Below, piece by piece: positions 34,237-50,081 of a DNA stretch of 64,000 bases. The stretch is from Pseudomonas allokribbensis. Its GTDB lineage: Bacteria > Pseudomonadota > Gammaproteobacteria > Pseudomonadales > Pseudomonadaceae. The stretch spans positions 2,303,001 to 2,367,000 of the forward strand of contig NZ_CP062252.1 of assembly GCF_014863605.1 (NCBI RefSeq). Reading direction: 5' to 3'. Both the position numbers and the translations under genes were made by a program. The first letter of the stretch is position 1. Every line of letters begins with the position of its first letter. The notes beneath the pieces are model-generated. The model saw only the letters and a list, made by a program, of their open reading frames with translations. It did no database searches and had not been told where the DNA came from.

Positions 34237-35787
34237 ATGAACCTGCGCCGCGTTCTCGCCTTGATCCTGCTCGCTGGCGCCAGCCTCGGCGCTGCCGCGT
34301 TGCCGCTGACCGCTGAAGAAAGCGCCGGCAAGCGCCTGTACCGCGAAGGCCTGTCGGCCAGCGGCGAGGCGATCATGGCACGGGTCGGTGCGGCGGACGT
34401 GTTGCTGCCGGCCACTAGCCTGCCGTGCGCCAACTGCCACGGTGCCGATGGTCTCGGCCGACCCGAAGGCGGCGTGCGTCCACCGGAGCTGAACTGGTCG
34501 CGGCTGACCAGCCTCCACGGTCAGCAACAGATCAATGGCCGCAACTACCCGGCCTACACCGACAGCAGTCTGGCGCGGGTGATTCAGGAGGGGCGTGACC
34601 CCGGCAACAACCGGCTCGACCCGAGCATGCCGCGCTTTCTGCTGTCGACGAAGGACCAGCGCAACCTCACTGCCTATCTCAAACGCCTGGCCGATGATCG
34701 CGATCCGGGGCTCGATGACCAGACTTTGCACCTGGGCACTTTGCTGCCGAGCCAGGGGCCGCTGGCCGAGGAGGGCGCTACGGTGGCGGCGGTGCTCAAC
34801 GGCAGCGTGGCGCGGATCAATCAGGCCGGGGGCATTCATGGCCGGCAGTTGCGCCTGACCGTGGTCGATCCCGGCCCGGACCGCGCCAGCGCCGAACAGG
34901 CTCTGCAACGGTTGATCGATGAGGAAAAGGTCTTTGCGCTGATCGCCCCGCTGGCCCCGGCGCTGGATAGCGAACTGGCGCCGCGTCTGGAGCAGGCCGG
35001 TCTGCCCCTGATCGGGCCGCTGTCCTTGATGGGCTCGGTGCAGGCCAGTGCGCAGATTTTCGAACCGCTGCCGGGATTGCGCGAGCAGTTGATCGCCCTG
35101 GCCGACTACGCCACCGCCAGCCTGAAAGTGCTGCAAGGGCCGACGCTGATCGCCTATCCCGACGACCCGACCCAGGTGCAGGCCGCCCAGGCGCTGGGGC
35201 AATACTTGCAGGATCACGGCTGGAAAAATGTCCGAATGCAGGCCTACGACCCGGCGGCGGATACCTTGCCGCTGGGCTCACGCTCAGTGTTCTACCTGGG
35301 CAGCGGCAGCGGTTTCAGTCGGCTGGCGACGGGGTTGCAGCATGCCGGGCAGGTGCCGTACCTGTTCGCGACGTCGGGCCAGGTGGCGGGCGACTTGCTG
35401 CAAGTGCCCGAGGGCTTTTCCCGGCGCGTATTCCTGGCCTATCCCTTTGTGCCCAGCGACTGGACTCAGGCCGGGCGCATGGCCCTGACCCTGCTGCGCG
35501 AACATCAGGGCCTCGGCGCGCAGCATGCGGTGCTGCAAGTCGGCGCCTATGCCTCGATGCTGTTGTTCAGCGAAGCCATGAAGCAGGCCGGGCGCGACGC
35601 CAGCCGCGAAAAGATGGTGGCGGCCCTCGAAGGCCTGCACGACTTCGACACCGGCCTGACCCCGCGCCTCAGCTTCGGCCCCGGCCGGCGATCGGGCTTG
35701 AGCGGGGCGCATGTGGTCACCGTGGACTTGCCCGATCAGCGTTTCTATCTGGTCGCGCCCTACAAACCGATTCTCGCGAGCCCCTGA
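34237..35787 (+). CDS. Cytochrome c fused to a periplasmic ligand-binding domain
   Basis: 516 residues, signal peptide ending near GAAA-LPL. Residues 25-150 are a class I cytochrome c with heme motif C64-A-N-C67-H68 and the downstream Met region (DPSMPRFLL). Residues 160-515 form a type 1 periplasmic binding fold as in branched-chain amino acid ABC transporters (LGTLLPSQGPLAEEGATVAA, then NQAGGIHGRQLRLTVVD). No transporter genes are nearby. The fusion suggests electron transfer linked to ligand sensing; in this operon it may take electrons from MnxG. Function unproven. Confidence 0.75.
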   Translation: MNLRRVLALILLAGASLGAAALPLTAEESAGKRLYREGLSASGEAIMARVGAADVLLPATSLPCANCHGADGLGRPEGGVRPPELNWSRLTSLHGQQQINGRNYPAYTDSSLARVIQEGRDPGNNRLDPSMPRFLLSTKDQRNLTAYLKRLADDRDPGLDDQTLHLGTLLPSQGPLAEEGATVAAVLNGSVARINQAGGIHGRQLRLTVVDPGPDRASAEQALQRLIDEEKVFALIAPLAPALDSELAPRLEQAGLPLIGPLSLMGSVQASAQIFEPLPGLREQLIALADYATASLKVLQGPTLIAYPDDPTQVQAAQALGQYLQDHGWKNVRMQAYDPAADTLPLGSRSVFYLGSGSGFSRLATGLQHAGQVPYLFATSGQVAGDLLQVPEGFSRRVFLAYPFVPSDWTQAGRMALTLLREHQGLGAQHAVLQVGAYASMLLFSEAMKQAGRDASREKMVAALEGLHDFDTGLTPRLSFGPGRRSGLSGAHVVTVDLPDQRFYLVAPYKPILASP

Positions 35788-35802: not shown

Positions 35803-36564
35803 ATGAAGCTCAAAAGCGTGTTGTGGCTGCTGGCATGCTGGTTGCCGATCGCGTTCGCCAATACGGAACCGGTGGCGGCGCGGGTCAATGGCGAGGTGAT
35901 TTCCGAGTTTCGTCTGGAACGGTTTTTCGCCGAATACCTGGAAGACCGGGGCCGCGCCGTCGCGAGCATCCGCAGTCCAAAGGCCTATAAACAGCTGCGC
36001 CAGGCCGCGCTGGACACGCTGATCGACAAGGAACTGTTGTGGCAGGAGGCGCAAAAGCGTGGCCTGAAGGTGGACGATCAAGTGGTGCAGCAACAGGTCG
36101 AACAGATTCGCGTCGCCATCGGCGGCAGAGACAACTTCCTGTGGCGCTTGCAGGATGCGGGGTTCGACGAGGCCTCGTTCACCGAGTACACCCGACGTGA
36201 ACTGGCGGCGCAGCAGATGTTCGCCGCGTTGATCCGCGCCAACACCTTGCAGGCTCGGCATCTGCTGGTTCGGGTGGCGCCGGGTGCCGATGCCGCCACA
36301 GACGCGGCGGCGCGTCTACGCTTGATGCAGATGCGCGCCTCCGTGGTCGAGGGGGCAACGTTCGCCAGCGATGCCGTTCGCTCGCCATTCGGCTGGCATT
36401 TGATCTATTTGCAGAACCACTTGGAGGCAGCCGATGTCCCACAGATGCAGGGGCTTGCAACAGTCCGGGTACAGCGTGCCCGACAGCAACAGGTCCAGGC
36501 TCGTCGCCAGGTGCTCGCGCAATTGCGGGCGCAGAACAGGATCGAACGAATTGACGACGATTGA
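35803..36564 (+). CDS. SurA-like periplasmic chaperone with shortened parvulin domain
   Basis: 253 residues, signal peptide MKLKSVLWLLACWLPIAFA. The SurA N-terminal chaperone fold is clear (VAARVNGEVISEFRLERFFA, LIDKELLWQEAQKRGLKVDD, FTEYTRRELAAQQMF). The parvulin part begins ARHLLVRV and ends SPFGWHLIYLQN, but between VVEGATFASD and that end about 35 residues with the usual GGDLGWF core are absent. It is therefore likely a holdase without peptidyl-prolyl isomerase activity. It is last in the mnxG operon and could help fold or export the very large oxidase. Confidence 0.75.
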   Translation: MKLKSVLWLLACWLPIAFANTEPVAARVNGEVISEFRLERFFAEYLEDRGRAVASIRSPKAYKQLRQAALDTLIDKELLWQEAQKRGLKVDDQVVQQQVEQIRVAIGGRDNFLWRLQDAGFDEASFTEYTRRELAAQQMFAALIRANTLQARHLLVRVAPGADAATDAAARLRLMQMRASVVEGATFASDAVRSPFGWHLIYLQNHLEAADVPQMQGLATVRVQRARQQQVQARRQVLAQLRAQNRIERIDDD

Positions 36565-36570
36565 AGGTTC

Positions 36571-36630
36571 CCCCCCAATAGTGGGGAATGGCTTCGATGT
36601 CCATTCAGGTGCTTCCCCGTTTCTGGGGAA
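36571..36630. promoter_or_regulatory. Two CCCC/GGGG palindromes before the gsp-csg operon (putative MnxR sites)
   Basis: CCCC-AATAGT-GGGGAA at 36573-36588 and TTCCCC-GTTTCT-GGGGAA at 36613-36630. The second is a perfect palindrome of TTCCCC arms. They are about 75 and 115 bases upstream of the sigma-54 promoter. Confidence 0.65.
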
Positions 36631-36703
36631 CGGGGTACCGGGACGAGCGGGCATTGTCATCAAATTCAAGGACATGAAGACATCAATTTACCGGCACTCG
36701 GCC

Positions 36704-36719
36704 TGGCATGAAGTGTGCG
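36704..36719 (+). promoter_or_regulatory. Sigma-54 promoter of response regulator/gsp/csg operon
   Basis: TGGCATGAAGTGTGCG has GG at 36705-36706 and GC at 36717-36718, ten bases apart. The -12 box is TGTGC instead of TTGC, so it is slightly weaker than the mnxG promoter. Confidence 0.72.
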
Positions 36720-36799
36720 TTACCTCTTGTGAGGCGCACTCCAGCAGGATCGGGCAGTTGATTTGAAAAGGCCGGATCTGTCGCTGCAAGGAGTAGACC

Positions 36800-37333
36800 T
36801 TGGTTAACAAAGTACTGGTTGTCGAAGACGAACAGCTGCTTGCACAGAACCTTCAGGATTATCTGTCGGCGCAAGGGCTGGATGTCCGGATTGCACATGA
36901 CGGCGCAGACGGAATCGGCCAGGCCGAGACCTTCGCTCCCGACGTGCTGGTGTTCGATTACCGCTTGCCCGATATGGAAGGGTTCGAGGTGCTCGGCGCG
37001 GTCCGCCAGAACAGGACGTGTCATTTCGTGCTGATAACGGGTCACCCGACCGCTGAAGTCTGTGAGCGGGCGCGGCAACTGGGGGTCAGTCACATCCTGT
37101 TCAAACCGTTTCCACTGGCGGAACTGGCCCGAGCTGTCTGCGACCTTCTGGGGATCCAGCGCGAAGCGAAACCCGGTGCGAGCCCGTCCGAAGGGTTCGT
37201 CGAACGACGCCAGAGCAGGACCGAGAGCTTCCCGTTGCAGTTGTACGATGGCAGTTGGGTGCTGGCGGACCGCCGACGAAACCGGTCGGAGGCCATGGCA
37301 CCGGACGACGATCAAATGCTCACCGGGGAGTAA
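36800..37333 (+). CDS. Receiver-domain-only response regulator
   Basis: 177 residues. Residues 1-120 are a complete receiver (VLVVEDE, phosphorylation site Asp53 in VFDYRLPD, switch Thr in LITGH, Lys in ILFKPFP). The remaining 55 residues are polar with no DNA-binding or catalytic domain. The start is a TTG with AAGGAG six bases upstream. It opens the operon that contains the secretion and curli genes, so it may tune that machine by protein contact, for example at GspE, or draw phosphate from the MnxS kinases. Both are inferences. Confidence 0.82.
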   Translation: MVNKVLVVEDEQLLAQNLQDYLSAQGLDVRIAHDGADGIGQAETFAPDVLVFDYRLPDMEGFEVLGAVRQNRTCHFVLITGHPTAEVCERARQLGVSHILFKPFPLAELARAVCDLLGIQREAKPGASPSEGFVERRQSRTESFPLQLYDGSWVLADRRRNRSEAMAPDDDQMLTGE

Positions 37334-37416
37334 TGGCGCGATAGACGTTCCGGCACTCGCCGAACTCGCCTCCCGCGCCGTCAGGGCCTCAAGCCCCGGG
37401 TGTTGGAGAGCAAGCC

Positions 37417-39123
37417 ATGGAACGTCTGTCCGTTGTCGTCGAAGCGTTGCAGCCTGCGTGTGCCCCGACACGCTTCTCCAGTGAACAACTGGCCCAGGCC
37501 CGGGCGCGGGCCAACACCTCCGGGGAACGGGTGCTCGACGCACTCAACGTCCTTTGCGAACTGGCGCCGATGCCGTTCATTGCCAGCCTCGGCGCCACCC
37601 TGCATTACCCGGTGCTCGACACCGACACCCTGTTTCTGGCGACCCCGGTGTTCGACCGGGTCACCCTCGCGCAATGCCTCAAACGTGAATTCATCCTGCT
37701 GCGGCACAACGATGAAGTCATCGGTGTGTTCGCTGACCCCTTCGACACTTCGCGCCTGGCCTGGATCGATGAATGCCTGCACGGCGCGCCGCTGTATCTG
37801 GTGCACGCCGACGACCTCAAGGCCTATCTGGCCCGTCACGAAGAAAGCTTCCATGCCGTCGAATCGCTCAACGCCCAGGCCGACGCCGGCAGCGAGGTCG
37901 ACACCCTGCAAAGCCTGTCGCTGACCAGCATCAGCGAAGACTCGAGCGTGGTGGTGAAACTGGTCAACTCGACCCTCTACGATGCGCTGAAAATGCACGC
38001 CAGCGACATCCACCTCGGCACCACCGGCAACGGTCTGGTGATCAAGTACCGGATCGACGGCGTGCTCAACAACATCAGCAAGATCCAGGGCAGCGAGTTC
38101 GCCGAACAGGTGATTTCCCGGGTCAAGGTCATGGCCGAACTGGACATCGGCGAAAAACGCGTGCCCCAGGACGGTCGCTTCAAGATCGGCATCAGCGGCC
38201 GGCAGATCGACTTCCGGGTGTCGATCATGCCGAGCATCTTCGGCGAAGACGCGGTGTTGCGGGTGCTCGACAAACAGGACCTGGCCGACAAGGTCTGCGG
38301 TGTGCAGCTGCAAGCGCTGGGCTTCGAAGACGAAACCCTGCGCCAACTGCGCCGCCTCGCTGCCGAACCCTACGGTATGGTGCTGGTGACCGGCCCCACC
38401 GGCAGCGGCAAGACCACCACGCTGTACGCGATGATCACCGAGATCAACCACGGCGTGGACAAGATCATCACCATCGAAGACCCGGTGGAATATCAACTAC
38501 CGGGCGTGCTGCAAATCCCGGTCAACGAGAAAAAAGGCCTGACCTTCGCCCGTGGCCTGCGCTCGATCCTGCGCCACGACCCGGACAAGATCATGGTCGG
38601 CGAGATCCGCGACCCGGACACCGCACAGATCGCCGTGCAATCGGCACTCACCGGGCACCTGGTGTTCACCACCATCCACGCCAACAACGTGTTCGACGTA
38701 ATCGGTCGTTTCACTCAAATGGAAATCGATCCCTACAGCCTGGTCTCGGCGCTCAACGCGATTCTCGCGCAACGCCTGATCCGTCTGGTGTGCAGCAGTT
38801 GCAGCGCACCGGCCACCCCGAGCGATGAAGAACTGCGCGCTTCAGGCCTCGACCCGCACAAGGTCGGCCACTACCACTTCGTCCACGGCAAGGGCTGCGG
38901 CCACTGCCGGGGCAGCGGCTATCGCGGACGCACGGCGATTGCCGAACTGCTGCACCTGGACGACGAGCTGCGGCAGATGATCGTCGAGCGCCAACCCATC
39001 ACTCAGATCAAAGCCCTGGCCTGCGCCCGTGGTTTGCGCCTGTTGCGCGAATCGGCGCTGGAGCTGGTAGAGCATGGTCGGACCACGCTGGAGGAGATCA
39101 ATCGTGTCACTTTTATCGCGTGA
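37417..39123 (+). CDS. gspE: Type II secretion/type IV pilus assembly ATPase GspE
   Basis: 568 residues. An N-terminal GspE/MshE domain (residues 30-150) is followed by the ATPase core: Walker A GPTGSGKTTT near 326, Asp box TIEDPVEY, Walker B MVGEIRDPDTA and the His box FTTIHANN. A zinc tetracysteine region follows (C459-x2-C and C494-x2-C). It powers pseudopilus extension with GspF. GGAGAG precedes the ATG. The last bases overlap the start of the next gene. Confidence 0.92.
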   Translation: MERLSVVVEALQPACAPTRFSSEQLAQARARANTSGERVLDALNVLCELAPMPFIASLGATLHYPVLDTDTLFLATPVFDRVTLAQCLKREFILLRHNDEVIGVFADPFDTSRLAWIDECLHGAPLYLVHADDLKAYLARHEESFHAVESLNAQADAGSEVDTLQSLSLTSISEDSSVVVKLVNSTLYDALKMHASDIHLGTTGNGLVIKYRIDGVLNNISKIQGSEFAEQVISRVKVMAELDIGEKRVPQDGRFKIGISGRQIDFRVSIMPSIFGEDAVLRVLDKQDLADKVCGVQLQALGFEDETLRQLRRLAAEPYGMVLVTGPTGSGKTTTLYAMITEINHGVDKIITIEDPVEYQLPGVLQIPVNEKKGLTFARGLRSILRHDPDKIMVGEIRDPDTAQIAVQSALTGHLVFTTIHANNVFDVIGRFTQMEIDPYSLVSALNAILAQRLIRLVCSSCSAPATPSDEELRASGLDPHKVGHYHFVHGKGCGHCRGSGYRGRTAIAELLHLDDELRQMIVERQPITQIKALACARGLRLLRESALELVEHGRTTLEEINRVTFIA

Positions 39124-39907
39124 TCAATTTGTCGCCGTGCTCGGTGCCAGCGGTGTCGGCCTCGGCCAGCGCCGGGGCAGCGACACCCTGTGGCTGGGCA
39201 GCGTCGGCTACATCGACGAAGGCTTCCACAGCTACACCGTGGCGCTGGACACCCTCGACCGTCTGCTCGGCGAACACGCTCGCGCAGGTTCGGAGCTGAA
39301 CGTGGTGATCTCCGGGCACTTCAGCCGTTTCTGCCTGGTGCCGTGGAGCGAGCAGATCAGCACGCCCGAGGAACTGCGCGGCTTTGCCCAACTGTGTTTC
39401 GAAGACCTGTTCGGCGCCCCGACCCAACCCTGGAGCTTGGTGCTGTCGGCCGAGCCCGCCGGGCATGACCGGATCGCCAGCGCCTTGCCGCAGGATCTGC
39501 TGGAACGCCTGCGCACCCTGGTCAGCGGTCGCAACCTGCGTCTGCGTTCGGTGCAGCCGTACCTGATGAGCGCCTTCAACCGCTTCGACAAAAGCCTCGA
39601 CGCTGGCGACTTCCTGTTCGTGGTCGCCGAGCCGCAACGCAGCGTGTTGCTGCTGGCAAGGGAAGGGCGCTGGGCATCGGTGCGCTCGGTGGGCGGCAGC
39701 GACAGCGATGCGGCACTCAGTGCCTTGATCGGTCGCGAACGGCAACTGCAAGCCTCCACCAGCGAACGCGCCTTCAACGTTTACCTGCACGCCCCGGCGC
39801 GCCTCGATGCGCAACCGGATGTGGCGGGGGTGCACTTGCGCACCCTCGAAGACGACTCGATGACCGTGCGTGACGCCTTGTACGTCATGTCCCGGGCGGT
39901 GGCCTGA
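39104..39907 (+). CDS. PilM/MshI/GspL-like cytoplasmic assembly protein
   Basis: 267 residues from a GTG at 39104 that overlaps gspE by 20 bases and has GGAG/GAGAT upstream. No membrane segment is evident. The fold signature of actin-like PilM/MshI proteins is weak but present (VISGHFSRFCLVPW, ALPQDLLERLRTL, SAFNRFDKSLDAGDFLFVVA, LLLAREGRW). Position between gspE and a PilN-like gene agrees with this role as cytoplasmic adaptor between ATPase and inner-membrane ring. Confidence 0.65.
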   Translation: MSLLSRDQFVAVLGASGVGLGQRRGSDTLWLGSVGYIDEGFHSYTVALDTLDRLLGEHARAGSELNVVISGHFSRFCLVPWSEQISTPEELRGFAQLCFEDLFGAPTQPWSLVLSAEPAGHDRIASALPQDLLERLRTLVSGRNLRLRSVQPYLMSAFNRFDKSLDAGDFLFVVAEPQRSVLLLAREGRWASVRSVGGSDSDAALSALIGRERQLQASTSERAFNVYLHAPARLDAQPDVAGVHLRTLEDDSMTVRDALYVMSRAVA

Positions 39908-39908
39908 G

Positions 39909-40454
39909 ATGCGCGCCCTGAACCTCGACTTCCAACCCCGTCCGCGTTCCGGCCCGTTGGGCTGGAGCCTGCTCGGCGGCGGTGTGTTCCTTGCGCTGGT
40001 GTGCTTCGGCGTGCAGCAGCACCTCGGCGATCAGGCCGAACAACAGCAAGGTCACTTGCAACACACCCAGCGCCAGCTCACCGGCGACAGCGGCAGCAAG
40101 ACATCGCTAAGCCCGGCGGAAACCCGCGAGCAGGCGCAGAACCTCGCCGAAATGCGCAAGGTCTCGCAGCAACTGCGCCGCCCCTGGGAACGCCTGTTCG
40201 CCATGCTCGAAGCCATGCCGCGCGACGACATCGCCTTGCTGACCCTGACCCCGGATGCGCGCAAGGGGCAGGTACGGATCAGCGCCGAGGCGCGGGATCT
40301 GCAAGCGATGCTGGATTTCCACAAGCGGCTGGAGGCCAGTGACGAGCTGTCCGACGTGTCGCTGCTGAGCCATGAAATCGTCGTCAAATCGCCGGAGCAA
40401 CCGGTGCAGTTCAACCTGTCGGCAACCTGGGAGATGGGCGATGCGAATCCCTAG
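39909..40454 (+). CDS. PilN-like inner-membrane assembly protein
   Basis: 181 residues starting MRALNLDFQPRPRSGPLGWS. One membrane segment near residues 18-38 (LLGGGVFLALVCFGVQQ), a coiled region, then a small ferredoxin-like periplasmic domain (DIALLTLTPDARKGQVRISA). That is the PilN/MshJ architecture. It overlaps its downstream neighbour by 14 bases. Confidence 0.7.
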   Translation: MRALNLDFQPRPRSGPLGWSLLGGGVFLALVCFGVQQHLGDQAEQQQGHLQHTQRQLTGDSGSKTSLSPAETREQAQNLAEMRKVSQQLRRPWERLFAMLEAMPRDDIALLTLTPDARKGQVRISAEARDLQAMLDFHKRLEASDELSDVSLLSHEIVVKSPEQPVQFNLSATWEMGDANP

Positions 40455-40989
40455 ACTGATCGTCCACGAATACCTGCAAGGCCTCGGCGTTCCGGGCCTG
40501 GCCGGGCTGGCGCTGCTGGTCGCGACGTTGATCTGGGCACTCGGAGGCTTGCTGCCGGGCTGGCAATCGCTGCAACAGCTCAGCCAGCAAACCCAGGAGG
40601 CCACCGAATACCTGGCCAAGGTCGAGGACGGCAGCATTGCCCCGCCGGTGGTGCCGCAGCGTCAGCTCGATGATTTTCGCAACAAGCTGCCGGCCCAGCC
40701 GCAAGCCACCGTCGCCATCGACCGCATCTACGCCTTGGCCGCGCAGGAGCACATCACCCTGGCGCGCGGCGAATACGCCCTCGGCGTCGATCCCAAGACC
40801 CATCTGGCGCGCTACCAGATCCTGTTGCCGGTGCGCGGCAGCTACCCGCAACTGCGCCGCTTCCTGCATGCCTTGCTTGGCCAGTTGCCGGCAGTGGTGG
40901 TGGAAGACGTCGAGTTTCAACGCAAGAAGATCGCCGACACCGACCTCTCCGGGCGGATCCGTATGACCCTTTACCTGTCGAGGTCGTGA
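40441..40989 (+). CDS. PilO/GspM-like inner-membrane assembly protein
   Basis: 182 residues with one membrane segment (LAGLALLVATLIWALGGLLP), a coiled-coil stretch (QQLSQQTQEATEYLAKVE) and a C-terminal ferredoxin-like domain (TLARGEYALGVDPKTHLARY, GSYPQLRRFLHALL). This is typical PilO/GspM. It forms a complex with the PilN-like protein and its stop overlaps the next start (TGATG). Confidence 0.7.
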   Translation: MRIPRLIVHEYLQGLGVPGLAGLALLVATLIWALGGLLPGWQSLQQLSQQTQEATEYLAKVEDGSIAPPVVPQRQLDDFRNKLPAQPQATVAIDRIYALAAQEHITLARGEYALGVDPKTHLARYQILLPVRGSYPQLRRFLHALLGQLPAVVVEDVEFQRKKIADTDLSGRIRMTLYLSRS

Positions 40990-41507
40990 TGAACACCAAG
41001 CGCGTAACAGGGTGGGTGGCGTTCTTCGGCGTGGCGGCGGCGCTGGCCTGGTTGCCCGAATATTTTTCGCCGAGCGACGACGCGGACGCCACTGACGTCG
41101 CCGTCTCGACCCCGGCCAAATCCACCGCCCGTGGCGCCTTGCCGGCCAGCAGCGCCAAGGCTGGCGCAGCCCCGATCAAGGACTTGAGCCCGGCCGGCGA
41201 CCTGTTCGCCGCCAAATCCTGGAAGGCCGCGCCGACTCTGGCCACCGTCACCGAACAACCCGTCAACCTGACCCCGGTGGTGCAAGCCCCGAGCCTGCCA
41301 CCGGTGCCATTCCAGTTCGTCGGCCGCCTGCATGACCGCAGCGACCTGCAGGTGTTTTTGCAGGACGGCGAAAAAATCTACGTCGTGCGCAACGGGGATG
41401 TGATCGACGACACCTGGAAGATCACCGGCATTTCCGATCTGGAATTGAGCCTGGTCTACCTGCCTCTGCATTTGTCGCAGACCTTGTCTGTGGGGAGTAC
41501 GCAATGA
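40989..41507 (+). CDS. PilP/GspC-like secretin-linking protein
   Basis: 172 residues, an N-terminal membrane anchor (WVAFFGVAAALAWLPEYF), an Ala/Pro-rich linker and a small beta domain at the end (FQFVGRLHDRSDLQVFLQDG, then EKIYVVRNGDVIDDTWKI). The latter resembles the homology region of GspC/PilP that binds the secretin. The gene lies directly before gspD and overlaps it by four bases. Confidence 0.68.
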   Translation: MNTKRVTGWVAFFGVAAALAWLPEYFSPSDDADATDVAVSTPAKSTARGALPASSAKAGAAPIKDLSPAGDLFAAKSWKAAPTLATVTEQPVNLTPVVQAPSLPPVPFQFVGRLHDRSDLQVFLQDGEKIYVVRNGDVIDDTWKITGISDLELSLVYLPLHLSQTLSVGSTQ

Positions 41508-43351
41508 ACAGATCCCGTTTGCTGATGAGCCTTGGCCTGTGCGCCGGGCTGGCTGCGTGCAGCACCGCGCAGGTTGCCAATAAGGAAGCCGCTGACCTGA
41601 TCGAGCAGGGCCAGTACGAGGCGGGCCTGGCCCGGATCCAGGAAGGCTTGCGGGAAAACCCTCGCGACACCGAACTGCACCTGCTGCTCAACAGCGGCCG
41701 GGCCAAGGCGATCACCGCGCTGCTGACTTCGGGCGACACCGATCGTGCTCGCCGCGACTTCGCCAACGCACGCCTGGCCTACAGCCGGGTGCTGACCATC
41801 GAACCGAACAACCGCCGCGCTCAGGATGCTCTGCGCCAACTCGACTACCTGCGCAGCATGGACGAGAAGCTTGAGCTGGCCCGTGGCGACCTGCGTCGGG
41901 GCGATATTTACGGCGCCGACCGGCAGGTCAAACAGATCCTCGAACTCGACCCGAAAAACGACGGAGCGCTGGAGCTGCAAGGCAACATCCGTCTGGTGCA
42001 GAGCCGTAACGTCATCCAGTACCCGCAACTGCGCACCCGGCTCGACCGCCCGGTGACCCTGGAATTTCGCGACGCCAATCTCAAGACCATTTTCGAAGTG
42101 CTGTCCCAGGTCGCCGGGCTGAATTTCATCTTCGACAAGGACCTGCGCCCGGACATGAAAGCCACGATCTTCGTACGTGACGTGCGTATCGAAGACGCGG
42201 TGGCCTTGCTGCTGCAACAGAACCAGCTGCACCAGAAAGTGGTGAATGAAAACACCTTGCTGATCTACCCGGACTCGCCGCAGAAGCTCAAGGACTATCA
42301 AGAGCTGGTGATGCGCACCTTCTACCTGACCAGCATCGACGCCAATACCGCGCTGAACATGATCAAGACCATGCTCAAGACCCGCGATGTGTTCGTCGAC
42401 GAACGCCTGAATACCCTGACCATGCGCGACACCGAAGACGCGATCCGCATGGCCGAGAAACTCCTGCAATCGCAAGACCAGTCCAACCCCGAAGTGGTGC
42501 TGGAAGTGGAAGTGATGGAGGTCGCCACCCAGCGCATTCTCGATCTGGGCCTGCAATGGCCGAGCACCTTCGGCGTGCTCAACAGTGACGGTTCGCCCGT
42601 CACGCTGCTGGGCCAGCTCAAGGGCATCAACTCCGACCGCATCTCGATCGGGCCATCGCCGCAGGCCAAGATCAACGCACAGGACAACGACATCAACACC
42701 CTCGCCAGCCCGGTGATCCGCGTCAGCAACCGTGAGCAGGCGCGTATTCACATCGGTCAGCGCGTGCCGATCATCAGCGCTACGTCGGTGCCGTCCACGC
42801 AAGGGCCGGTGATCACCGAAAGCGTCACTTATCTGGATGTCGGTCTGAAGCTCGAAGTGACCCCGACCGTGCACCTGAACAACGAAGTGGCGATCAAGAT
42901 CGCCCTGGAAGTGAGTAACGCCACACCGCTGGAACCGACCCGTCAGGGCACGATCCCGGTGCAGGTCGATACCCGCAACGCCCAGACCTCGCTGCGCCTG
43001 CACGACGGCGAAACCCAGATCCTTGCCGGCCTGGTGCGCAACGACCATGGTGCCACCGGCAACAAGATTCCGGGGCTCGGCGACATTCCGGGGCTGGGCC
43101 GGTTGTTCGGCAGCAACAAGGACACCATCGGCAAATCGGAACTGGTGCTGTCGATCACTCCAAGGATCGTGCGCAACCTGCCGTATCAGAGCCCGTCGGA
43201 CATGGAGTTCCCGACCGGCACCGAAACCAGCATGCACATCCAGGCACCGGATCGCTCGCAGAATTTCGTGATGCCGACGCCTGCCGCGCAGCCTCGGGCC
43301 ATCGGTGATGCCGCCGTGGCAACCACCCGTGTCACCGTCGAGAAGCCTTGA
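41504..43351 (+). CDS. gspD: Outer-membrane secretin GspD (lipoprotein, TPR N-terminus)
   Basis: 615 residues. The lipobox LAAC at residue 19 marks a lipoprotein. Residues 25-170 are TPR-like helices (YEAGLARIQEGLRENPRDTE), then an N-domain (VTLEFRDANLKTIFEVLSQV) and the secretin beta barrel (VGLKLEVTPTVHLNNEVAIK, LAGLVRNDHG, IPGLGDIPGLGRLF). It forms the outer-membrane pore of the system. The TPR start is unlike classical GspD and more like MshL/BfpB-type secretins of pilus systems. Confidence 0.9.
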   Translation: MNRSRLLMSLGLCAGLAACSTAQVANKEAADLIEQGQYEAGLARIQEGLRENPRDTELHLLLNSGRAKAITALLTSGDTDRARRDFANARLAYSRVLTIEPNNRRAQDALRQLDYLRSMDEKLELARGDLRRGDIYGADRQVKQILELDPKNDGALELQGNIRLVQSRNVIQYPQLRTRLDRPVTLEFRDANLKTIFEVLSQVAGLNFIFDKDLRPDMKATIFVRDVRIEDAVALLLQQNQLHQKVVNENTLLIYPDSPQKLKDYQELVMRTFYLTSIDANTALNMIKTMLKTRDVFVDERLNTLTMRDTEDAIRMAEKLLQSQDQSNPEVVLEVEVMEVATQRILDLGLQWPSTFGVLNSDGSPVTLLGQLKGINSDRISIGPSPQAKINAQDNDINTLASPVIRVSNREQARIHIGQRVPIISATSVPSTQGPVITESVTYLDVGLKLEVTPTVHLNNEVAIKIALEVSNATPLEPTRQGTIPVQVDTRNAQTSLRLHDGETQILAGLVRNDHGATGNKIPGLGDIPGLGRLFGSNKDTIGKSELVLSITPRIVRNLPYQSPSDMEFPTGTETSMHIQAPDRSQNFVMPTPAAQPRAIGDAAVATTRVTVEKP

Positions 43352-43353
43352 TC

Positions 43354-43827
43354 ATGAACGCCTCCCAGCGCGGTTTTACCTTGATCGAAGTTGTGGTGAC
43401 GCTGGCCCTGATCGGCCTGCTGGCCGGCATGGCTGCGCCGCTGACCGAGACCCTGGTACGGCGTGGCAAGGAGCAGGAACTGCGCACCGCGCTGTATCAG
43501 ATTCGCGATGGCATTGACGCCTACAAGCGTGCCTTCGATGCCGGCTACATCGAGAAATCGCTGAACAGCAGCGGTTACCCGCCGAACCTCAAGGTGCTGG
43601 TCGAAGGCGTGCGCGACGTGCGCAGCGCCAAGGGTGCCAAGTTCTACTTTCTGCGCCGGATACCCCGCGATCCGCTGGTGCCGGCCAAGCGTGACGACAA
43701 CGGCGGTTGGGGCCTGCGGGCCTACGACAGTTCGGCCCAGAGCCCGCGCGATGGCGAAGACGTGTTCGACGTCTACTCCCACGCCAAGGGCCGTGGCCTC
43801 AACGGCATCGCTTACCGCGAGTGGTGA
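43354..43827 (+). CDS. Type II secretion pseudopilin (GspG/H-like)
   Basis: 157 residues. The prepilin site QRG-FTLIEVVVTLALIGLLAG has Glu(+5). The globular part (LRTALYQIRDGIDAYKRAFD, RRIPRDPLVP) is G-like but lacks the usual calcium loop. Start two bases after gspD. It is a second pseudopilin in addition to the G protein at 23732-24160. Confidence 0.85.
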   Translation: MNASQRGFTLIEVVVTLALIGLLAGMAAPLTETLVRRGKEQELRTALYQIRDGIDAYKRAFDAGYIEKSLNSSGYPPNLKVLVEGVRDVRSAKGAKFYFLRRIPRDPLVPAKRDDNGGWGLRAYDSSAQSPRDGEDVFDVYSHAKGRGLNGIAYREW

Positions 43828-43832
43828 CTTTC

Positions 43833-44207
43833 ATGCGCCGGGAAAAGGGTTTTACCTTGCTCGAACTGATGGTGGTGATGGCGATCATCGCGACCCTGAT
43901 GACCATCGCATTGCCGCGCTATTTCAACAGTCTCGAAGCCTCGAAAGAGACCACGTTGCACCAGAGCCTGTCGGCCATGCGCGAGGCGCTGGATCACTAC
44001 TACGGCGACACCGGGCGTTATCCCGATTCCATCGAGCAACTGGTCGAACAGCGTTACCTGCGCAACGCGCCACTGGACCCGATCACCGAGCGCAATGACC
44101 AGTGGGTGCTGGTCGCGCCGCCGGAAGGTGTGGCGGGTGGCGTGGCCGATATCAAGAGCGGTGCTACCGGGAGGGCGCGTGATGGCAGCCAGTATTCCGA
44201 GTGGTAA
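43833..44207 (+). CDS. Type II secretion pseudopilin (GspG-like)
   Basis: 124 residues, prepilin site EKG-FTLLELMVVMAIIATLMT with Glu(+5). LDHYYGDTGRYPDSIEQLVE and LRNAPLDPITERNDQWVLV are G-type motifs, and SQYSEW ends the chain. The next gene begins inside its 3' end (overlap 26 bases). Confidence 0.86.
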   Translation: MRREKGFTLLELMVVMAIIATLMTIALPRYFNSLEASKETTLHQSLSAMREALDHYYGDTGRYPDSIEQLVEQRYLRNAPLDPITERNDQWVLVAPPEGVAGGVADIKSGATGRARDGSQYSEW

Positions 44208-44733
44208 GCGCGCGGAACAGGGCGGGTTCACCTACCTGGGCGTGCTGTTCCTGATCGTGATCATGGGCATGGGCCTGGCCAGTGCCGGCGAGTTGTGGTC
44301 GACGGTTTCGCGGCGCGATCGCGAGAAGCAACTGCTGTGGGTCGGCACTCAATACGCCCAGGCGCTGCGCAGCTATTACCGCAGTTCGCCGGGGTTGGCG
44401 CAGTACCCGAAAGACCTGGCTGACCTGCTGCAGGACGAACGTTTTCCTGAGCCACGCCATCACCTGCGCCAGCTCTACCCGGACCCGATTGGCGGCGGTG
44501 AATGGGCGCTGCAACGGGGCTTTGACGGGCGTATCACTGGCCTCAACAGTCCGTCCACCGAAGTGCCATTGAAGCAGGCGGACTTCCCGTCGCAATGGTC
44601 GGATTTCGAGGGCATGCAGCGTTATTCGGACTGGCAGTTCGTGGCTGAAAAAGCCTTCCTCGATGGCACCGGCCCTGGCAACGGGTCCCCGGTCAAAGGC
44701 CAGTCGGCCCTGCCGCAGGCATTGCAGCCATGA
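44182..44733 (+). CDS. Minor pseudopilin lacking Glu5
   Basis: 183 residues. The processing site QGG-FTYLGVLFLIVIMGMGLA is a prepilin motif with Gly instead of Glu at +5, as in GspK-type tip pseudopilins. The rest (RDREKQLLWVGTQYAQALRS, SPGLAQYPKDLADLL, HHLRQLYPDPI) matches a minor pseudopilin family often found next to gspG genes. Without Glu5 it probably sits at the tip. It is joined to csgE by ATGA overlap, so secretion and curli genes are translated from one message. Confidence 0.8.
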   Translation: MAASIPSGKRAEQGGFTYLGVLFLIVIMGMGLASAGELWSTVSRRDREKQLLWVGTQYAQALRSYYRSSPGLAQYPKDLADLLQDERFPEPRHHLRQLYPDPIGGGEWALQRGFDGRITGLNSPSTEVPLKQADFPSQWSDFEGMQRYSDWQFVAEKAFLDGTGPGNGSPVKGQSALPQALQP

Positions 44734-45122
44734 GCCGTCCGTGGTGGTGCGCGTTGATCCTCGCTGCTGTGGCGTGCTGCGCCAGCGCCGCCGAGGAAGA
44801 CGAAATGATGGGCTTCATCGTCGACGACACGATCTCGCACATCGGCCACGACTTTTACTACTCGTTCAGCGAACGCCTGCGCGACACCAGCCCGATGGAT
44901 TTCAACCTGGTGGTGCGCGAGCGCCCCGACGCGCGCTGGGGGAGCCTTGTGACCGTGGAATATCAGCAACGCCTGGTGTATCGGCGCTTCCTGCCGCCGA
45001 ACACCGTAGAACTGAAGGACGAGGCCTACGAGGCCGCCGACTCGGTTCGACTGGAGGTCGTCCGGCGCAAGCTGGAAGCCTTGTTGCAGGACACCACCGA
45101 CCTTGAGAAGGACGAACTATGA
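44730..45122 (+). CDS. csgE: Curli assembly factor CsgE
   Basis: 130 residues with a signal peptide ending near CASA-AEE. The sequence GFIVDDTISHIGHDFYYSFS and the following VRERPDARWGSLVTVEY are typical of CsgE, the periplasmic cap of the CsgG pore. It overlaps both the pseudopilin gene before it and csgF after it by four bases. Confidence 0.9.
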   Translation: MSRPWWCALILAAVACCASAAEEDEMMGFIVDDTISHIGHDFYYSFSERLRDTSPMDFNLVVRERPDARWGSLVTVEYQQRLVYRRFLPPNTVELKDEAYEAADSVRLEVVRRKLEALLQDTTDLEKDEL

Positions 45123-45550
45123 ACACGACAACGTTCTCACGGCGCCGCGGATTCTGGATCTCGGGGTTGTTGATCGGGCTTGCCAGCGCCGCCGCCGTCC
45201 AGGCCACCGAGCTGGTCTACACACCGGTCAACCCGTCGTTCGGCGGCAACCCGCTCAACGGCACCTGGCTGCTCAACAACGCCCAGGCGCAAAACGATTA
45301 CGACGATCCGGACCTCAAGAAACGTACGACGGTGGCCGGCACTTCGGCGCTCGAACGTTTCACCAGTCAATTGCAGTCACGGTTGCTGGGGCAACTGCTG
45401 GACAACATCTCCACCGGCAACACGGGGAGCCTGTCCACCGACGCTTTTATCGTCAACGTCGTCGATGACTCGGGGGCACTCACGATTGAAGTGACTGACC
45501 GAGCGAGCGGCGAGGTTTCTGAAATTCAGGTGAACGGCCTCAACCCATGA
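45119..45550 (+). CDS. csgF: Curli assembly factor CsgF
   Basis: 143 residues. The mature start TELVYTPVNPSFGGNPLNGT is the diagnostic CsgF segment that plugs into CsgG; the rest (SALERFTSQLQSRLLGQLLD, then SLSTDAFIV) is also canonical. Secreted to the outer-membrane surface, it couples the CsgB nucleator to the pore. Confidence 0.93.
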   Translation: MNTTTFSRRRGFWISGLLIGLASAAAVQATELVYTPVNPSFGGNPLNGTWLLNNAQAQNDYDDPDLKKRTTVAGTSALERFTSQLQSRLLGQLLDNISTGNTGSLSTDAFIVNVVDDSGALTIEVTDRASGEVSEIQVNGLNP

Positions 45551-45579
45551 CGGGATGACGGTTCCGGGGAGTGATGGAC

Positions 45580-46440
45580 ATGAAAAAAATAATAGCGCTA
45601 GGGCTGATGTTGGCGGCATTACAAGGGTGTGGTCTGCGTGAGCCGATGTCGGCCGAGCAGGACACCGACACTCCGACCCTGACCCCCAGGGCCTCGACCT
45701 ACTACGACTTGCTGAAAATGCCTCGGCCCAAGGGCCGCTTGATGGCGGTGGTGTACGGCTTCCGTGACCAGACCGGACAGTACAAGCCGACCCCGGCCAG
45801 TTCGTTTTCCACCAGCGTCACCCAGGGCGCGGCGTCGATGTTGATGGACGCCTTGCAGGCCAGTGGCTGGTTTGTGGTGCTTGAGCGTGAAGGGCTGCAG
45901 AACCTGCTGACCGAACGCAAGATCATTCGTGCGTCGCAGAAAAAGCCGCATACGCCGGTGAACATCCAGGCTGAACTGCCGCCGTTGCAGGCGGCGAACA
46001 TGATGCTTGAGGGCGGGATCATCGCTTACGACACCAATGTGCGCAGCGGCGGGGAAGGGGCGCGGTATCTGGGGATCGATCTGTCCCGTGAGTACCGGGT
46101 TGATCAGGTGACTGTGAATTTGCGCGCGGTGGATGTGCGCAGCGGGCAGGTGTTGGCGAATGTGATGACCAGCAAGACGATTTATTCGGTGGCGCGCAGT
46201 GCCGGGGTGTTCAAGTTTATCGAGTTCAAGAAATTGCTTGAGGCTGAGGCGGGGTATACGACGAATGAGCCGGCTCAGTTGTGTGTGTTGTCGGCGATCG
46301 AGGCGGCGGTGGGGCATTTGCTGGCGCAGGGGATTGAGCGGCGGTTGTGGCAGGTCGCGGGGGATAATTCTTCGCCTGCGGGGGATGAGACTTTGAATCG
46401 GTATTTGACTCAGAACAAGGTGGATCCGGAGGCTGAGTGA
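45580..46440 (+). CDS. csgG: Curli secretion pore CsgG
   Basis: 286 residues from the ATG at 45580, which lies eight bases after GGGGA; ATG/GTG codons at 45574 and 45571 are too close to it. The lipobox LQGC gives a lipoprotein. CsgG motifs are present: PKGRLMAVVYGFRDQTGQYK, GWFVVLEREGLQNLLTERKI and YRVDQVTVNLRAVDVRSG. It is the nonameric outer-membrane channel that exports CsgA and CsgB. Last gene of the long operon that begins at the response regulator. Confidence 0.93.
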   Translation: MKKIIALGLMLAALQGCGLREPMSAEQDTDTPTLTPRASTYYDLLKMPRPKGRLMAVVYGFRDQTGQYKPTPASSFSTSVTQGAASMLMDALQASGWFVVLEREGLQNLLTERKIIRASQKKPHTPVNIQAELPPLQAANMMLEGGIIAYDTNVRSGGEGARYLGIDLSREYRVDQVTVNLRAVDVRSGQVLANVMTSKTIYSVARSAGVFKFIEFKKLLEAEAGYTTNEPAQLCVLSAIEAAVGHLLAQGIERRLWQVAGDNSSPAGDETLNRYLTQNKVDPEAE

Positions 46441-46467
46441 ACTTGGCGGCCTTTGGGCCGACCAGGT

Positions 46468-46800
46468 TCCTTTGGGTGTTTTGAGTACATATCCGTTGCT
46501 GCGGTAACGGCTTCTTATGGTTTCGCCCTTACGGCGACTCCCTTTGGCAAACGCCCCAAAGGAAGCAAAGGTCTGGGCCCCGGCGTTCAGCCCCTCGCTG
46601 GGGCTCGGGGTTCCTTCGTTCCGGGATTCATCCGGGGGCATCGCCTCCGGTTTGCTTCGCTGCACCTCCTCTCGATGTGTTCGACTTCGTCGAACGGTCG
46701 CTGCGCTCCCACCCCCGGATGAATCCCTCCACTCAGCCTGCCGAAGGGGCCGGCACGTCAAAAGCGGTACTCGAGCTAACGCTCATTGTGTTGAGTGGTG
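46468..46800. repeat. Large Pseudomonas extragenic repeat
   Basis: About 330 non-coding bases after csgG. Phrases such as TTTGAGTACATATCCGTTGC, GGTTTCGCCCTTACGGCGAC, TCCGGGGGCATCGCCTCCGG and TCCCACCCCCGGATGAATCC belong, from memory, to a repeat found many times between genes in Pseudomonas genomes. Several inverted repeats lie inside. There is no convincing gene. A short tandem AGCAGAA run (46811-46831) follows it. Confidence 0.65.
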
Positions 46801-46850
46801 AGAGGCGAAAAGCAGAAAGCAGAAAGCAGAAAGCGGACTGCTTTTGCTTT

Positions 46851-46905
46851 GATCGTTCCCGCGCTCCGCGTGGGAATGCAGCCCGGGACGCTCCGCGTTC
46901 CATTC
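46851..46905. repeat. Short palindromic extragenic repeat
   Basis: GATCGTTCCCGCGCTCCGCG and TGGGAATGCAGCCCGGGACG followed by CTCCGCGTTCCA: a widespread Pseudomonas REP-like element with GTTCCC...GGGAA symmetry. Confidence 0.6.
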
Positions 46906-46984
46906 TCGAATGTTTAAAAGATGTGTCTGTTTTAACGATCCTTCCCACAAGGTTTTCAGGTTGTCCGTCGGAAGCGCGGGCTCT

Positions 46985-47230
46985 AGCCTGTTTTGGTCGC
47001 TGCCAATTCAGCGATCGGGTCTGGAAACCCGGATGTGCGAGAAAGCGAAATCGCTTTTCATAACGTATGCTTGCGCACCTTCATTGTGTGCACGCTGTTA
47101 TGGCGGCTGTGCGCGGGAGACATTTATGTCTGCCGGGTCGCGTTCTCCCCGGATTTCCAGCCCGCGTACTGCTGCCACCCATTCTTCCTGGAAGTCGATT
47201 GGGCCGGCTGCAACCATCAATGAGGACGAA
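46985..47230 (+). promoter_or_regulatory. Structured leader of second DUF6124 gene
   Basis: Shares with 12387-12535 the hairpins TCGCTG/CAGCGA (46997-47014), CGGGT/ACCCG (47016-47031) and AGACAT-TT-ATGTCT (47118-47131), and the blocks TATGGCGGCTGT, GTCTGCCGG, CCCGCGTA and TGCTGCCACCC. The stem changes are compensatory. Between the second and third hairpins it carries an extra 30-40 bases. No gene lies in it. Confidence 0.62.
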
Positions 47231-47620
47231 ATGACCATGAAGAAACCAACACCCAACCCACCCGAAAACCAGGCCAGTCTCGAAACCGACCCAACCTCCC
47301 CATACACCTCCATCAACTCGAAAAAACTCCACGAAGCCGCCGAGCGCGCCCTCGACCATTACCTCTGCCCCGGCGCCCACATCATGGGCAGCGTCAACGA
47401 ACCCGCCCCGATGTACCTCGCCAACCCGGCCTACAACACCGAATCCCTGCTCGCCAACGCCTGCGAATCCCTGGGCTCCGCCAGCGAAATGCTCAACAAC
47501 TTCGCCGCCACCCTCGACCCCGCCCACCGCAAGACCGCGCTGGGTATCGCGCAGATCCTCATGTTGAGTGAGCTGGCCGTAAATCAGGCCTTGGATCACG
47601 TCGAGCTGAACGATGAATAG
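47231..47620 (+). CDS. DUF6124/DUF3077-family protein (paralogue)
   Basis: 129 residues (ATG 47231; 47237 is also possible). The same plan as the protein at 12582-12953: KKPTPNPPENQ start, KLHEAAERALDHYL and ESLLANACESLGSASEMLNN, then GIAQILMLSELAVNQALD. Function unknown. Its stop overlaps a small antitoxin-like gene, a hint of translational coupling. Confidence 0.85.
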   Translation: MTMKKPTPNPPENQASLETDPTSPYTSINSKKLHEAAERALDHYLCPGAHIMGSVNEPAPMYLANPAYNTESLLANACESLGSASEMLNNFAATLDPAHRKTALGIAQILMLSELAVNQALDHVELNDE

Positions 47621-47780
47621 CTCGGTACAGAAACCAAGTCCCTTCGAATCGGAACATAGTCGACTTACCTTGGAGGCAATGGACGATGTGGATGCTGATC
47701 GGGTGATTGACCATCAAACAGTGCTGGATTGGGCCGGTTCTTTGATCTGTCCGGATAAACCAATAGATAGTCTCCAATAG
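47613..47780 (+). CDS. Small antitoxin-like protein (CopG/stability type)
   Basis: 55 residues, MNSSVQKPSPFESEHSRLTL then EAMDDVDADRVIDHQTVLDW. The pattern LEAMxDVDAxRVIDHQxVxxW is that of short antitoxins that accompany RelE/ParE toxins in Pseudomonas. Start overlaps the DUF6124 stop by eight bases. No toxin gene follows; the next gene is another antitoxin-like one. I judged it real from its coding pattern and motif. Confidence 0.55.
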   Translation: MNSSVQKPSPFESEHSRLTLEAMDDVDADRVIDHQTVLDWAGSLICPDKPIDSLQ

Positions 47781-47803
47781 CTTGAGAACCATCAGAAACA
47801 AAA

Positions 47804-47838
47804 AAAGAACGCGATCCAAAAAAGAGGTCGCGTTCTTC
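47804..47838. terminator. Hairpin with A/T tract
   Basis: AGAACGCGA/TCGCGTTCT stem around a 13-base loop, with seven A on its left side. On the minus strand it reads as a terminator (stem then TTTTTTT), although no minus-strand gene ends here. It may stop antisense transcripts or be a remnant. Confidence 0.4.
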
Positions 47839-47858
47839 ACTTTCAATCAGGAGCCAAC

Positions 47859-48050
47859 ATGGATGACCTGTTCTCCCCAATCGTTTCAGACTTCGAAAGC
47901 GAAGAGCAGGCCGCCAGATATGACCGTTGGTTGCGTGCCAAAGTACAGGTTTCAATCGATGACCCACGACCCAGCATTCCGAATGCGCAGGTGATGGCTG
48001 AAATGTCGGCCCTGATGGAGGACAAACGAAGAAAGCATGAGGCGGGGTGA
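47859..48050 (+). CDS. Antitoxin-like 'stability determinant' protein
   Basis: 63 residues. EEQAARYDRWLRAKVQVSID followed by DPRPSIPNAQVMAEMSAL is the conserved core of short Pseudomonas/proteobacterial antitoxins annotated as stability determinants that pair with RelE/ParE toxins. CAGGAG precedes the ATG. No toxin is adjacent: the next gene is an unrelated 72-residue protein, so it is an orphan. Confidence 0.65.
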   Translation: MDDLFSPIVSDFESEEQAARYDRWLRAKVQVSIDDPRPSIPNAQVMAEMSALMEDKRRKHEAG

Positions 48051-48144
48051 GTGCTTTGCGTTGGCAATGTGAAAAGTAGAAAAGCGCAATGCCGATTTTG
48101 GCTACTCTACTGCTTCCTGACGACTAACTATTTTTGAGGAGCGC

Positions 48145-48363
48145 ATGGACCTTTCACCACCACTGGAAATCGACAGCGCTACCTATGCAGAATTCTTGGG
48201 CCTGTGGGAAATGGGTTCCTTTGATAATCAGCGATTGGGACAAGCCTTCTACAACCATTTCCGCCTCCATCGGTTAACCGATCAGGCTTTGTTGCATGGG
48301 CTTTACGAGGCAGACGGCAAGAAGGCTCGAGCCGCTATAAGTCGCATATTTAATCTCAATTAG
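48145..48363 (+). CDS. Small unknown protein
   Basis: 72 residues, MDLSPPLEIDSATYAEFLGL then WEMGSFDNQRLGQAFYNHFR. TGAGGAG stands before the ATG. No signal peptide or membrane segment. I do not recognise the family. The stop overlaps the end of the antitoxin remnant on the other strand. Confidence 0.6.
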   Translation: MDLSPPLEIDSATYAEFLGLWEMGSFDNQRLGQAFYNHFRLHRLTDQALLHGLYEADGKKARAAISRIFNLN

Positions 48364-48463
48364 CATCAGCCTTTTTGCGCATTGATTCCATTAAGGCATG
48401 TATCTCGGCCATCACCTGGTCATGCGGGATGTTCGGACGCGGATCATCGAGAGAGGCCTGCAC
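48356..48463 (-). pseudogene. Remnant of a second antitoxin gene
   Basis: The minus strand encodes EVQASLDDPRPNIPHDQVMA, then EIHALMESMRKK, close to the C-terminal half of the antitoxin at 47859-48050 (AKVQVSIDDPRPSIPNAQVM). The N-terminal half with RYDRW is missing; upstream codons are unrelated and contain a GAAAACGG-T-CCGTTTTC palindrome. So this is a truncated copy in opposite orientation. Confidence 0.6.
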
Positions 48464-48558
48464 TTCCGACGGCCAACCGCCAGAATTCGTCAGAAAAGTC
48501 CCCGATTTTCTGAAAACGGTCCGTTTTCCGTAGTACGCCACTCAAGCTTCAGCGCGAA

Positions 48559-48590: not shown

Positions 48591-48603
48591 CAACACCCAA
48601 CCC

Positions 48604-50055: not shown

Positions 50056-50081
50056 GATGAACTCTCCGATGATTGCAGTGC

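Follow-up and report, generated by a model that had tools for sequence, protein, structure and literature searches.

Gene organization of the locus

The window analyzed here is a stretch of 64,000 nucleotides from the genome of Pseudomonas allokribbensis (contig NZ_CP062252.1; bases 2303001–2367000 of a single-contig genome of 6.57 Mb), and positions given below refer to this window. At 36800–46440, its plus strand carries a string of 13 genes that encode a receiver-domain protein, the assembly ATPase GspE, four inner-membrane or associated proteins, a secretin with tetratricopeptide repeats (TPR), three pseudopilins, and the curli proteins CsgE, CsgF, and CsgG. Genes of a type II secretion system (T2SS) and of curli (type VIII) secretion are combined in this string, which lies downstream of the operon of mnxG, the gene for a manganese-oxidizing multicopper oxidase. 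Among the Pseudomonas genomes compared, nearly all of those with mnxG have all three components, and a locus of the same kind, built from other parts, was found in Hyphomonadaceae.

The first gene of the string, rr (36800–37333; TTG start as listed), encodes a response regulator with a receiver domain (Response_reg, E = 1.5e-21) and no recognized output domain. It is followed after 83 bp by gspE (37417–39123; T2SSE, E = 1e-124). The next gene, gspL (39104–39907; spacing to gspE −20 bp), lacks a Pfam match, and its AlphaFold2 model (predicted local distance difference test score, pLDDT, 88.9) is an actin fold for which Foldseek (E = 1.9e-13) gives PilM as the best match in PDB, with cytoplasmic GspL also matched. 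Two genes for a PilN-like (gspM1; 39909–40454; Pfam PilN) and a GspM/PilO-like protein (gspM2; 40441–40989; Pfam T2SSM_b) follow at +1 and −14 bp. The GspC/PilP-like protein (40989–41507; −1 bp) also has no Pfam match; its model has an overall pLDDT of 59.7, and the C-terminal domain resembles PilP or the homology region (HR) domain of GspC, with a weak best Foldseek match (E = 6.6e-3). The secretin GspD, which has a TPR N-terminus (41504–43351; −4 bp; Secretin, E = 1.7e-39), is followed by pseudopilin 1 (ppl1; 43354–43827; +2 bp; N_methyl), pseudopilin 2 (ppl2; 43833–44207; +5 bp; N_methyl and T2SSG), and pseudopilin 3 (44182–44733; −26 bp), which lacks a Pfam match and shares 37–40% identity with the third pseudopilin of four Burkholderiales T2SSs. 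The first two are presumably homologs of XcmT2/T3, and the third of XcmX. The string ends with csgE (44730–45122; Pfam, E = 1.4e-35), csgF (45119–45550; E = 6.9e-32), and csgG (45574–46440; E = 2.7e-81).

From gspE to csgF, all neighboring genes overlap or are at most 5 bp apart (−26 to +5 bp), as the sequence-only reading had noted, and the ATGA that it described between xcmX and csgE (44730–44733) and between csgE and csgF (45119–45122) is indeed shared by stop and start (−4 bp each). Its proposal of a single coupled T2SS-csg operon holds for the tightly packed, conserved string. It does not extend to the gaps between rr and gspE and between csgF and csgG (+23 bp), to two T2SS genes encoded elsewhere, or to the curlin genes, which form a unit of their own. 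A family search of the genome located GspF, the XcmS-like inner-membrane platform protein (22530–23735; T2SSF, E = 2.8e-57), and GspG, the XcmT1-like major pseudopilin (23732–24160; T2SSG, E = 3.7e-44), on the minus strand upstream of mnxG (22530–24160). Two curlins, a CsgA-like protein of 483 amino acids (48604–50055; seven Curlin_rpt stretches) and a CsgB-like protein of 154 amino acids (50082–50546; four stretches), form a minus-strand unit at 48604–50546. Beside csgBA, a large Big_9/cadherin-like protein (50647–52920, minus strand) is also matched in many relatives and is a possible matrix protein.

With these additions, the T2SS core set is complete (secretin, assembly ATPase, GspF, GspG, and minor pseudopilins), and the inner-membrane clamp GspL-M-C is represented by PilN and T2SSM_b at the level of Pfam and by the modeled GspL/PilM and GspC/PilP folds. 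No prepilin peptidase is present in the cluster, and no search aimed at one was made. GspE (492.6 vs 630 bits) and GspD (157.5 vs 351 bits) score below the T2SS equivalog cut-offs, suggesting that the Xcm T2SS is a divergent subtype. These scores, the split of the inner-membrane parts as PilM-N-O-P, and the narrow difference between the GspE score and that with PilB (480.5 bits) could also be read as signs of a type IV pilus. This identity is very improbable, given a major subunit that matches T2SSG (E = 3.7e-44), the presence of just one ATPase gene (T2SSE) in the part of the cluster run against Pfam, and a published Xcm phenotype in P. putida GB-1 that is reportedly a secretion defect. The three pseudopilin genes followed by csgE-csgF-csgG correspond to the Xcm-csm cluster, and CsgE, CsgF, and CsgG together with curlin-repeat subunits make up curli (type VIII) secretion at the gene level. 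These are the parts in common with Escherichia coli-type curli. Unlike in that system, csgEFG here lies downstream of a T2SS, the subunits are encoded on the other strand, and CsgA has 483 amino acids.

The mnxG operon upstream of the string comprises mnxG (25177–30996; NCBIfam equivalog NF041487, 3901.8 bits vs a cut-off of 3100), whose product is likely the T2SS cargo, and genes for a beta-propeller protein (31024–32946; Pfam beta-propeller families) that adjoins mnxG in many other phyla, two SCO1/SenC copper chaperones (SCO; 32954–33610 and 33607–34227; Pfam), a cytochrome c/periplasmic binding protein (34237–35787; Pfam), and a SurA-like peptidyl-prolyl isomerase (35803–36564; Pfam SurA_N), all on the plus strand. 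It ends 235 bp before rr.

Co-occurrence and conservation among Pseudomonas genomes

In a genus sample of 199 Pseudomonas genomes, mnxG is present in 59 and a CsgE match in 66. Secretin matches at E = 1e-60 were found in 71 genomes, of which 61 with at least 70% identity were counted as Xcm (including a fragment at a contig end in G021); the 10 weaker matches (34–36% identity) were set aside as another secretin. The Xcm secretin is present in all 59 mnxG genomes vs only two of the 140 genomes without mnxG. All 59 also have a CsgE match, and 58 have intact csgEFG (i.e., open over 85% of the length of the window gene). The expectation that the T2SS-csg genes accompany the manganese oxidase is borne out, and in a second, named set that overlaps the first in part, CsgE is present in 43/43 genomes with a Pseudomonas-type mnxG. 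The statement that curli and type II secretion are normally separate fails for mnxG-bearing Pseudomonas.

The two genomes with Xcm and without mnxG (G021 and G163) have no CsgE match, and csgE joined to Xcm was found in none of the 140 genomes without mnxG. In 59 of the 61 Xcm genomes, csgE lies 1.4–2.1 kb after the secretin. Seven genomes (7/199) have CsgE but lack both mnxG and the Xcm secretin; where their regions were read, no Xcm matches accompany the csg genes, and in most of them csgA is matched between csgF and csgG.

The full-length Xcm secretin is found at 60 loci, those of the 59 mnxG genomes and G163. All 13 genes from rr to csgG were called in 57 of these, and csgE, csgF, and csgG are intact in 58. 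The 4-bp overlap is kept in 55/59 measurable loci for xcmX-csgE and in 58/58 for csgE-csgF. Given this retention of genes and overlaps, the tight packing of the string exceeds chance. Stop codons occur within the match for the secretin of G015 and for mnxG of G129. Of the 50 full-length loci having csgG, 33 also include csgA in their 19.9-kb stretch. In G163 (L066), Xcm is kept in the absence of mnxG, csgE, and csgF, and csgG is a remnant.

In most genomes (53/59), mnxG precedes the secretin by 10.4–12.3 kb and has the same orientation. In G102, mnxG lies 188 kb from Xcm, and in Pseudomonas sp. RIT623, it is on another contig without its usual neighbors; both keep the whole Xcm-csg string (L062 and L220). 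The separate contigs of mnxG and Xcm in G025, G134, and G170 (L088, L090, and L089), where the mnxG side runs to the contig end, look like assembly breaks, and in G076 and G174, the mnxG side is outside the stretches read. Pseudomonas jinjuensis, a candidate for an unlinked mnxG, was rejected as such, since its locus (L156:9995-25709) has three mnxG genes in tandem, each product sharing about 73% identity with MnxG of the window. G087 has a second mnxG with a beta-propeller gene (L072:3177-15797), oriented divergently to a csgE-F-A-G-B operon of the classical type, with no T2SS match there. This was not counted as curli recruitment; in G151 and G167, which also have a second mnxG, csg genes do not adjoin that copy in the stretches read. 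A record named Pantoea sp. Ap-967 (L147) carries a Pseudomonas-type mnxG, and the name is probably wrong.

Promoter-like sites

Sites matching the sigma-54 element (GG-N10-GC at −24/−12, scored out of 12) were predicted by pattern. The gap before rr contains one (36704–36719, plus strand; 9/12), and another is upstream of mnxG (25105–25120, plus strand; 11/12). Among 59 loci, the highest-scoring element within 200 bp upstream of rr reaches at least 9 in every case (35 at 9, five at 10, and 19 at 11), a score reached by 3.8% of shuffled pre-rr regions. Upstream of mnxG, 43 of 44 regions score at least 10, and 24 of 28 pre-xcmT1 regions score 8 or lower. Scans of 36400–50800 for sigma-70 promoters (one promoter-like site vs 2.6 expected) and for terminators (19 terminator-like vs 12.1 expected) were uninformative.

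Manganese oxidation is lost in an rpoN mutant, and sigma-54 and the sigma-54-dependent regulator MnxR are needed, according to PMC11409713. Taken together with this dependence, the separate sites before rr and mnxG suggest that rr-T2SS-csgEFG is probably transcribed separately from the neighboring mnxG and co-regulated with it. The single transcript under a manganese-oxidation promoter that had been proposed appears less likely in view of the gap before rr and the site in it.

Manganese oxidase loci outside Pseudomonas

A scan for MnxG retained the best 80 of 503 relatives, confirmed against an alphaproteobacterial MnxG; 37 of these loci fall outside the Pseudomonas type. T2SS-like genes are found within 10 kb of mnxG in seven of these 37 loci (L099, L100, L127, L128, L149, L162, and L170, with the match weak in L127), from Roseomonas, Hyphomonas, and others; many flanks end at contig ends. 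Curlin repeats are found in four of 36 non-Pseudomonas mnxG genomes, three from Hyphomonadaceae and that of Roseomonas pecuniae. More lineages combine mnxG with T2SS genes than with curli. A plasmid of Indioceanicola profundi (L095) carries mnxG, a beta-propeller gene, and two SCO genes with T2SS genes on either side; csg was not matched within its 35-kb stretch. A protein of 1612 amino acids encoded next to this mnxG (9899–14737 of L095) has no Pfam match. A phylum sample of 398 genomes has mnxG only in P. allokribbensis and G299, too few for a test. MnxG relatives also occur in metagenome-assembled genomes (MAGs) labeled Methanoperedens and the anammox bacterium Jettenia (L102 and L105).

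Hyphomonadaceae, to which Hyphomonas sp. BRH_c22 belongs, are represented by 105 genomes, of which 10 carry mnxG and 46 curlin repeats. Curlin repeats are present in 9/10 mnxG-positive vs 37/95 mnxG-negative genomes (Fisher p = 0.0046, kinship ignored). Six contiguous loci (L149 and L190–L194) share the order T2SS minor pseudopilins-mnxG-beta-propeller-SCO-SCO-cytochrome-csgF-csgG-curlins, with most genes of L149 checked by Pfam. The conserved synteny for which a survey of gene order had been suggested was recovered in this family, built from other parts. The remaining mnxG genomes are more varied: in G650, csgFG and curlins are separated from mnxG by about 20 kb, G622 has curlins and no csgFG match in the stretch read, the mnxG contig of G618 ends early, and the fragmented genome of G655 has no curlin match. 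Conversely, G635 has csgFG of the mnxG-linked kind without mnxG.

Evolutionary origins of the components

In the CsgG phylogeny (43 rows, long branches), the Pseudomonas Xcm-type homologs group with gammaproteobacterial sequences and the mnxG-linked homologs of Hyphomonadaceae with alphaproteobacterial ones. A single clade of the two mnxG-linked groups was rejected by the approximately unbiased test (p-AU = 0.0018). The GspE phylogeny (21 rows, long branches) places Xcm with csg-free Burkholderiales T2SSs (support 100/100), apart from the alphaproteobacterial mnxG-linked T2SSs. In a quick MnxG tree (28 rows), both groups fall within one larger clade and are not sisters. These three trees indicate that the cluster of oxidase, T2SS, and curli appears to have been assembled, or to have had its parts exchanged, separately in Pseudomonas and Hyphomonadaceae. 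Such independent assembly in two bacterial classes is sequence evidence for a functional link.

The Burkholderiales systems are encoded on large plasmids of Janthinobacterium, Paraburkholderia, Eleftheria, and Cupriavidus (four of 25 matching plasmid records were read). They share the order E-L-M-M-C-D-three pseudopilins with Xcm, and their GspE is 53–57% identical. Unlike Xcm, they have no csg genes in the 25-kb stretches, and GspF and GspG are encoded in or adjoining the cluster. This comparison bears on whether Xcm and CsgEFG form one machine, such that curlin would need Xcm or MnxG would need CsgG. The coupling of the last pseudopilin gene to csgE is in line with such a hybrid exporter, which is nevertheless highly unlikely, given that either half is found on its own: the same T2SS type lacks csg on the four plasmids, related csgEFG genes lack T2SS matches in the 19.9-kb stretches of G042 and G060 (L074 and L075), and Hyphomonas uses another T2SS and another CsgG lineage.

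Comparison with described systems

The T2SS described here is the Xcm system, and its core is not new, the Xcm-csg neighborhood having been in print since 2003 (de Vrind et al., Mol Microbiol 47:993). De Vrind and co-workers reportedly described in P. putida GB-1 the order xcmT2-xcmT3-xcmX followed by the csg homologs csmE-csmF-csmG, with xcmT1-xcmS elsewhere, and the cluster is said to be needed for secretion of the manganese-oxidizing factor. Compared with that Xcm-csm cluster, mnxG here is physically linked in the same island, and GspF and GspG are encoded beside it.

The strains GB-1 and KT2440 of P. putida are mentioned in connection with the Xcm cluster in PMC4509608. The mnxG operons of P. 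putida GB-1, MS-1, and DSV-1 have the same order of mnxG, beta-propeller, and two SCO1 genes and depend on sigma-54, and the terms "secretion", "curli", "csg", and "xcm" do not occur in the main text of the same article (PMC11409713). A survey of curli genes reports that csgD is missing near csg operons in Pseudomonas except P. stutzeri, and its main text contains neither "type II secretion" nor "gsp" (PMC3521004). Clusters of csgEFG and csgAB in P. putida are mentioned in PMC3056050, which also states, citing de Vrind 2003, that transposon screens identified general secretory pathway genes as needed for manganese oxidation. Among the literature matches listed, this is the only article with both mnxG and curli.

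In the open-licence literature, queried with few terms, no paper was found that combines mnxG with "type II secretion" or that contains at least four of Hyphomonas, manganese, curli, multicopper oxidase, and type II secretion, and papers joining manganese oxide, curli, and amyloid looked unrelated. Nor was any report found there of the Hyphomonadaceae locus, of the sigma-54-like site upstream of rr, or of mnxG, Xcm, and csg strictly co-occurring. These three are the new elements here.

Functional interpretation

These findings bear on how a large copper oxidase reaches the cell exterior and on how bacteria determine the sites of manganese oxide growth. We consider it reasonably probable that a conserved manganese-oxidation island is present here, with rr-T2SS-csgEFG as its Xcm-csg part. 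Two neighboring operons, mnxG-beta-propeller-SCO-SCO-cytochrome-SurA and rr-T2SS-csgEFG, would be switched on together by sigma-54, as suggested by the conserved promoter-like sites and the published dependence on rpoN and MnxR. The Xcm T2SS, completed by the GspF and GspG encoded upstream of mnxG, would then export folded MnxG across the outer membrane, a cargo assignment based on linkage and on the reported requirement of the Gsp pathway for manganese oxidation. CsgEFG would be a second, separate exporter for CsgA and CsgB, which may form an acidic amyloid coat that holds oxidase and mineral near the cell, and the overlapping genes may keep both exporters in step.

Several observations weigh against this interpretation. 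G137 (L039) has an open mnxG and keeps Xcm, with only a csgE remnant and with csgF, csgG, and most of csgA/B lost. No curlin repeat was found in 32 of the 36 non-Pseudomonas mnxG genomes, although many of these are incomplete MAGs. The parts are mostly linked physically in Pseudomonas, with mnxG truly apart only in G102 and RIT623, such that the co-occurrence amounts to few independent events; because of this linkage and the relatedness of the genomes, Fisher values overstate independence. For csgB of the window, the sigma-54-like match is poor (6/12 at best), and the strict sigma-54 pattern occurs across the window at chance frequency (three found vs 3.23 expected), such that the sigma-54 argument rests on the position of the sites being kept in relatives. 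Finally, mnxG mutants of P. putida GB-1 are merely slowed in oxidation, indicating that other oxidases exist (PMC3056050). G137 and G163 represent natural losses and are possible natural test strains.

Some of these points would fit an alternative in which csgEFG follows the T2SS for no other reason than a shared role in life at surfaces, with curli as an ordinary biofilm fiber and only the T2SS serving manganese oxidation. The mnxG genomes without curlin repeats and the loss of curli in G137 agree with this account, as do the T2SS-mnxG pairs of Roseomonas and Indioceanicola without csg in the stretches read and the seven Pseudomonas genomes with csgE and neither mnxG nor the Xcm secretin. Nevertheless, it appears rather unlikely, considering the intact csgEFG in all but one of the mnxG-bearing Pseudomonas, the kept ATGA coupling, and the apparently separate recruitment of the third partner in Hyphomonadaceae. 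Since T2SS genes are the more widespread companion of mnxG, MnxG export is most likely the job of the T2SS. Curli appears to be an optional third partner, recruited in two groups. Returning to the manganese-oxidation island, it is plausible that curli carries manganese oxide, and the arrangement of the second lineage, built from different parts, hints that the fibers serve manganese oxide formation. The sequence-only reading, which had envisaged oxidase and amyloid exported together to build a mineralized matrix, is partly supported as a whole, and the observation behind it is confirmed.

The curlins of both lineages are acidic (isoelectric points of 4.06 for CsgA of the window and 4.05 for CsgA of Hyphomonas), which would suit metal binding. 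Acidity is common among curlins. Tentatively, and with somewhat less confidence than for the island itself, the oxidase, its dedicated T2SS, and curli may constitute a functional unit for amyloid-guided manganese biomineralization, assembled at least twice (in Pseudomonas and Hyphomonadaceae) from separate T2SS and curli lineages, in which an acidic curlin scaffold would bind the exported oxidase and nucleate the oxide. If curli is such a scaffold, biogenic manganese oxide would be an amyloid-templated mineral.

Other features of the genome include a lytic transglycosylase gene between gspG and mnxG (24363–24974, plus strand; SLT, E = 5.2e-28) and another CsgG-family match elsewhere in the P. 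allokribbensis genome (G000:C1:3736610-3737140).

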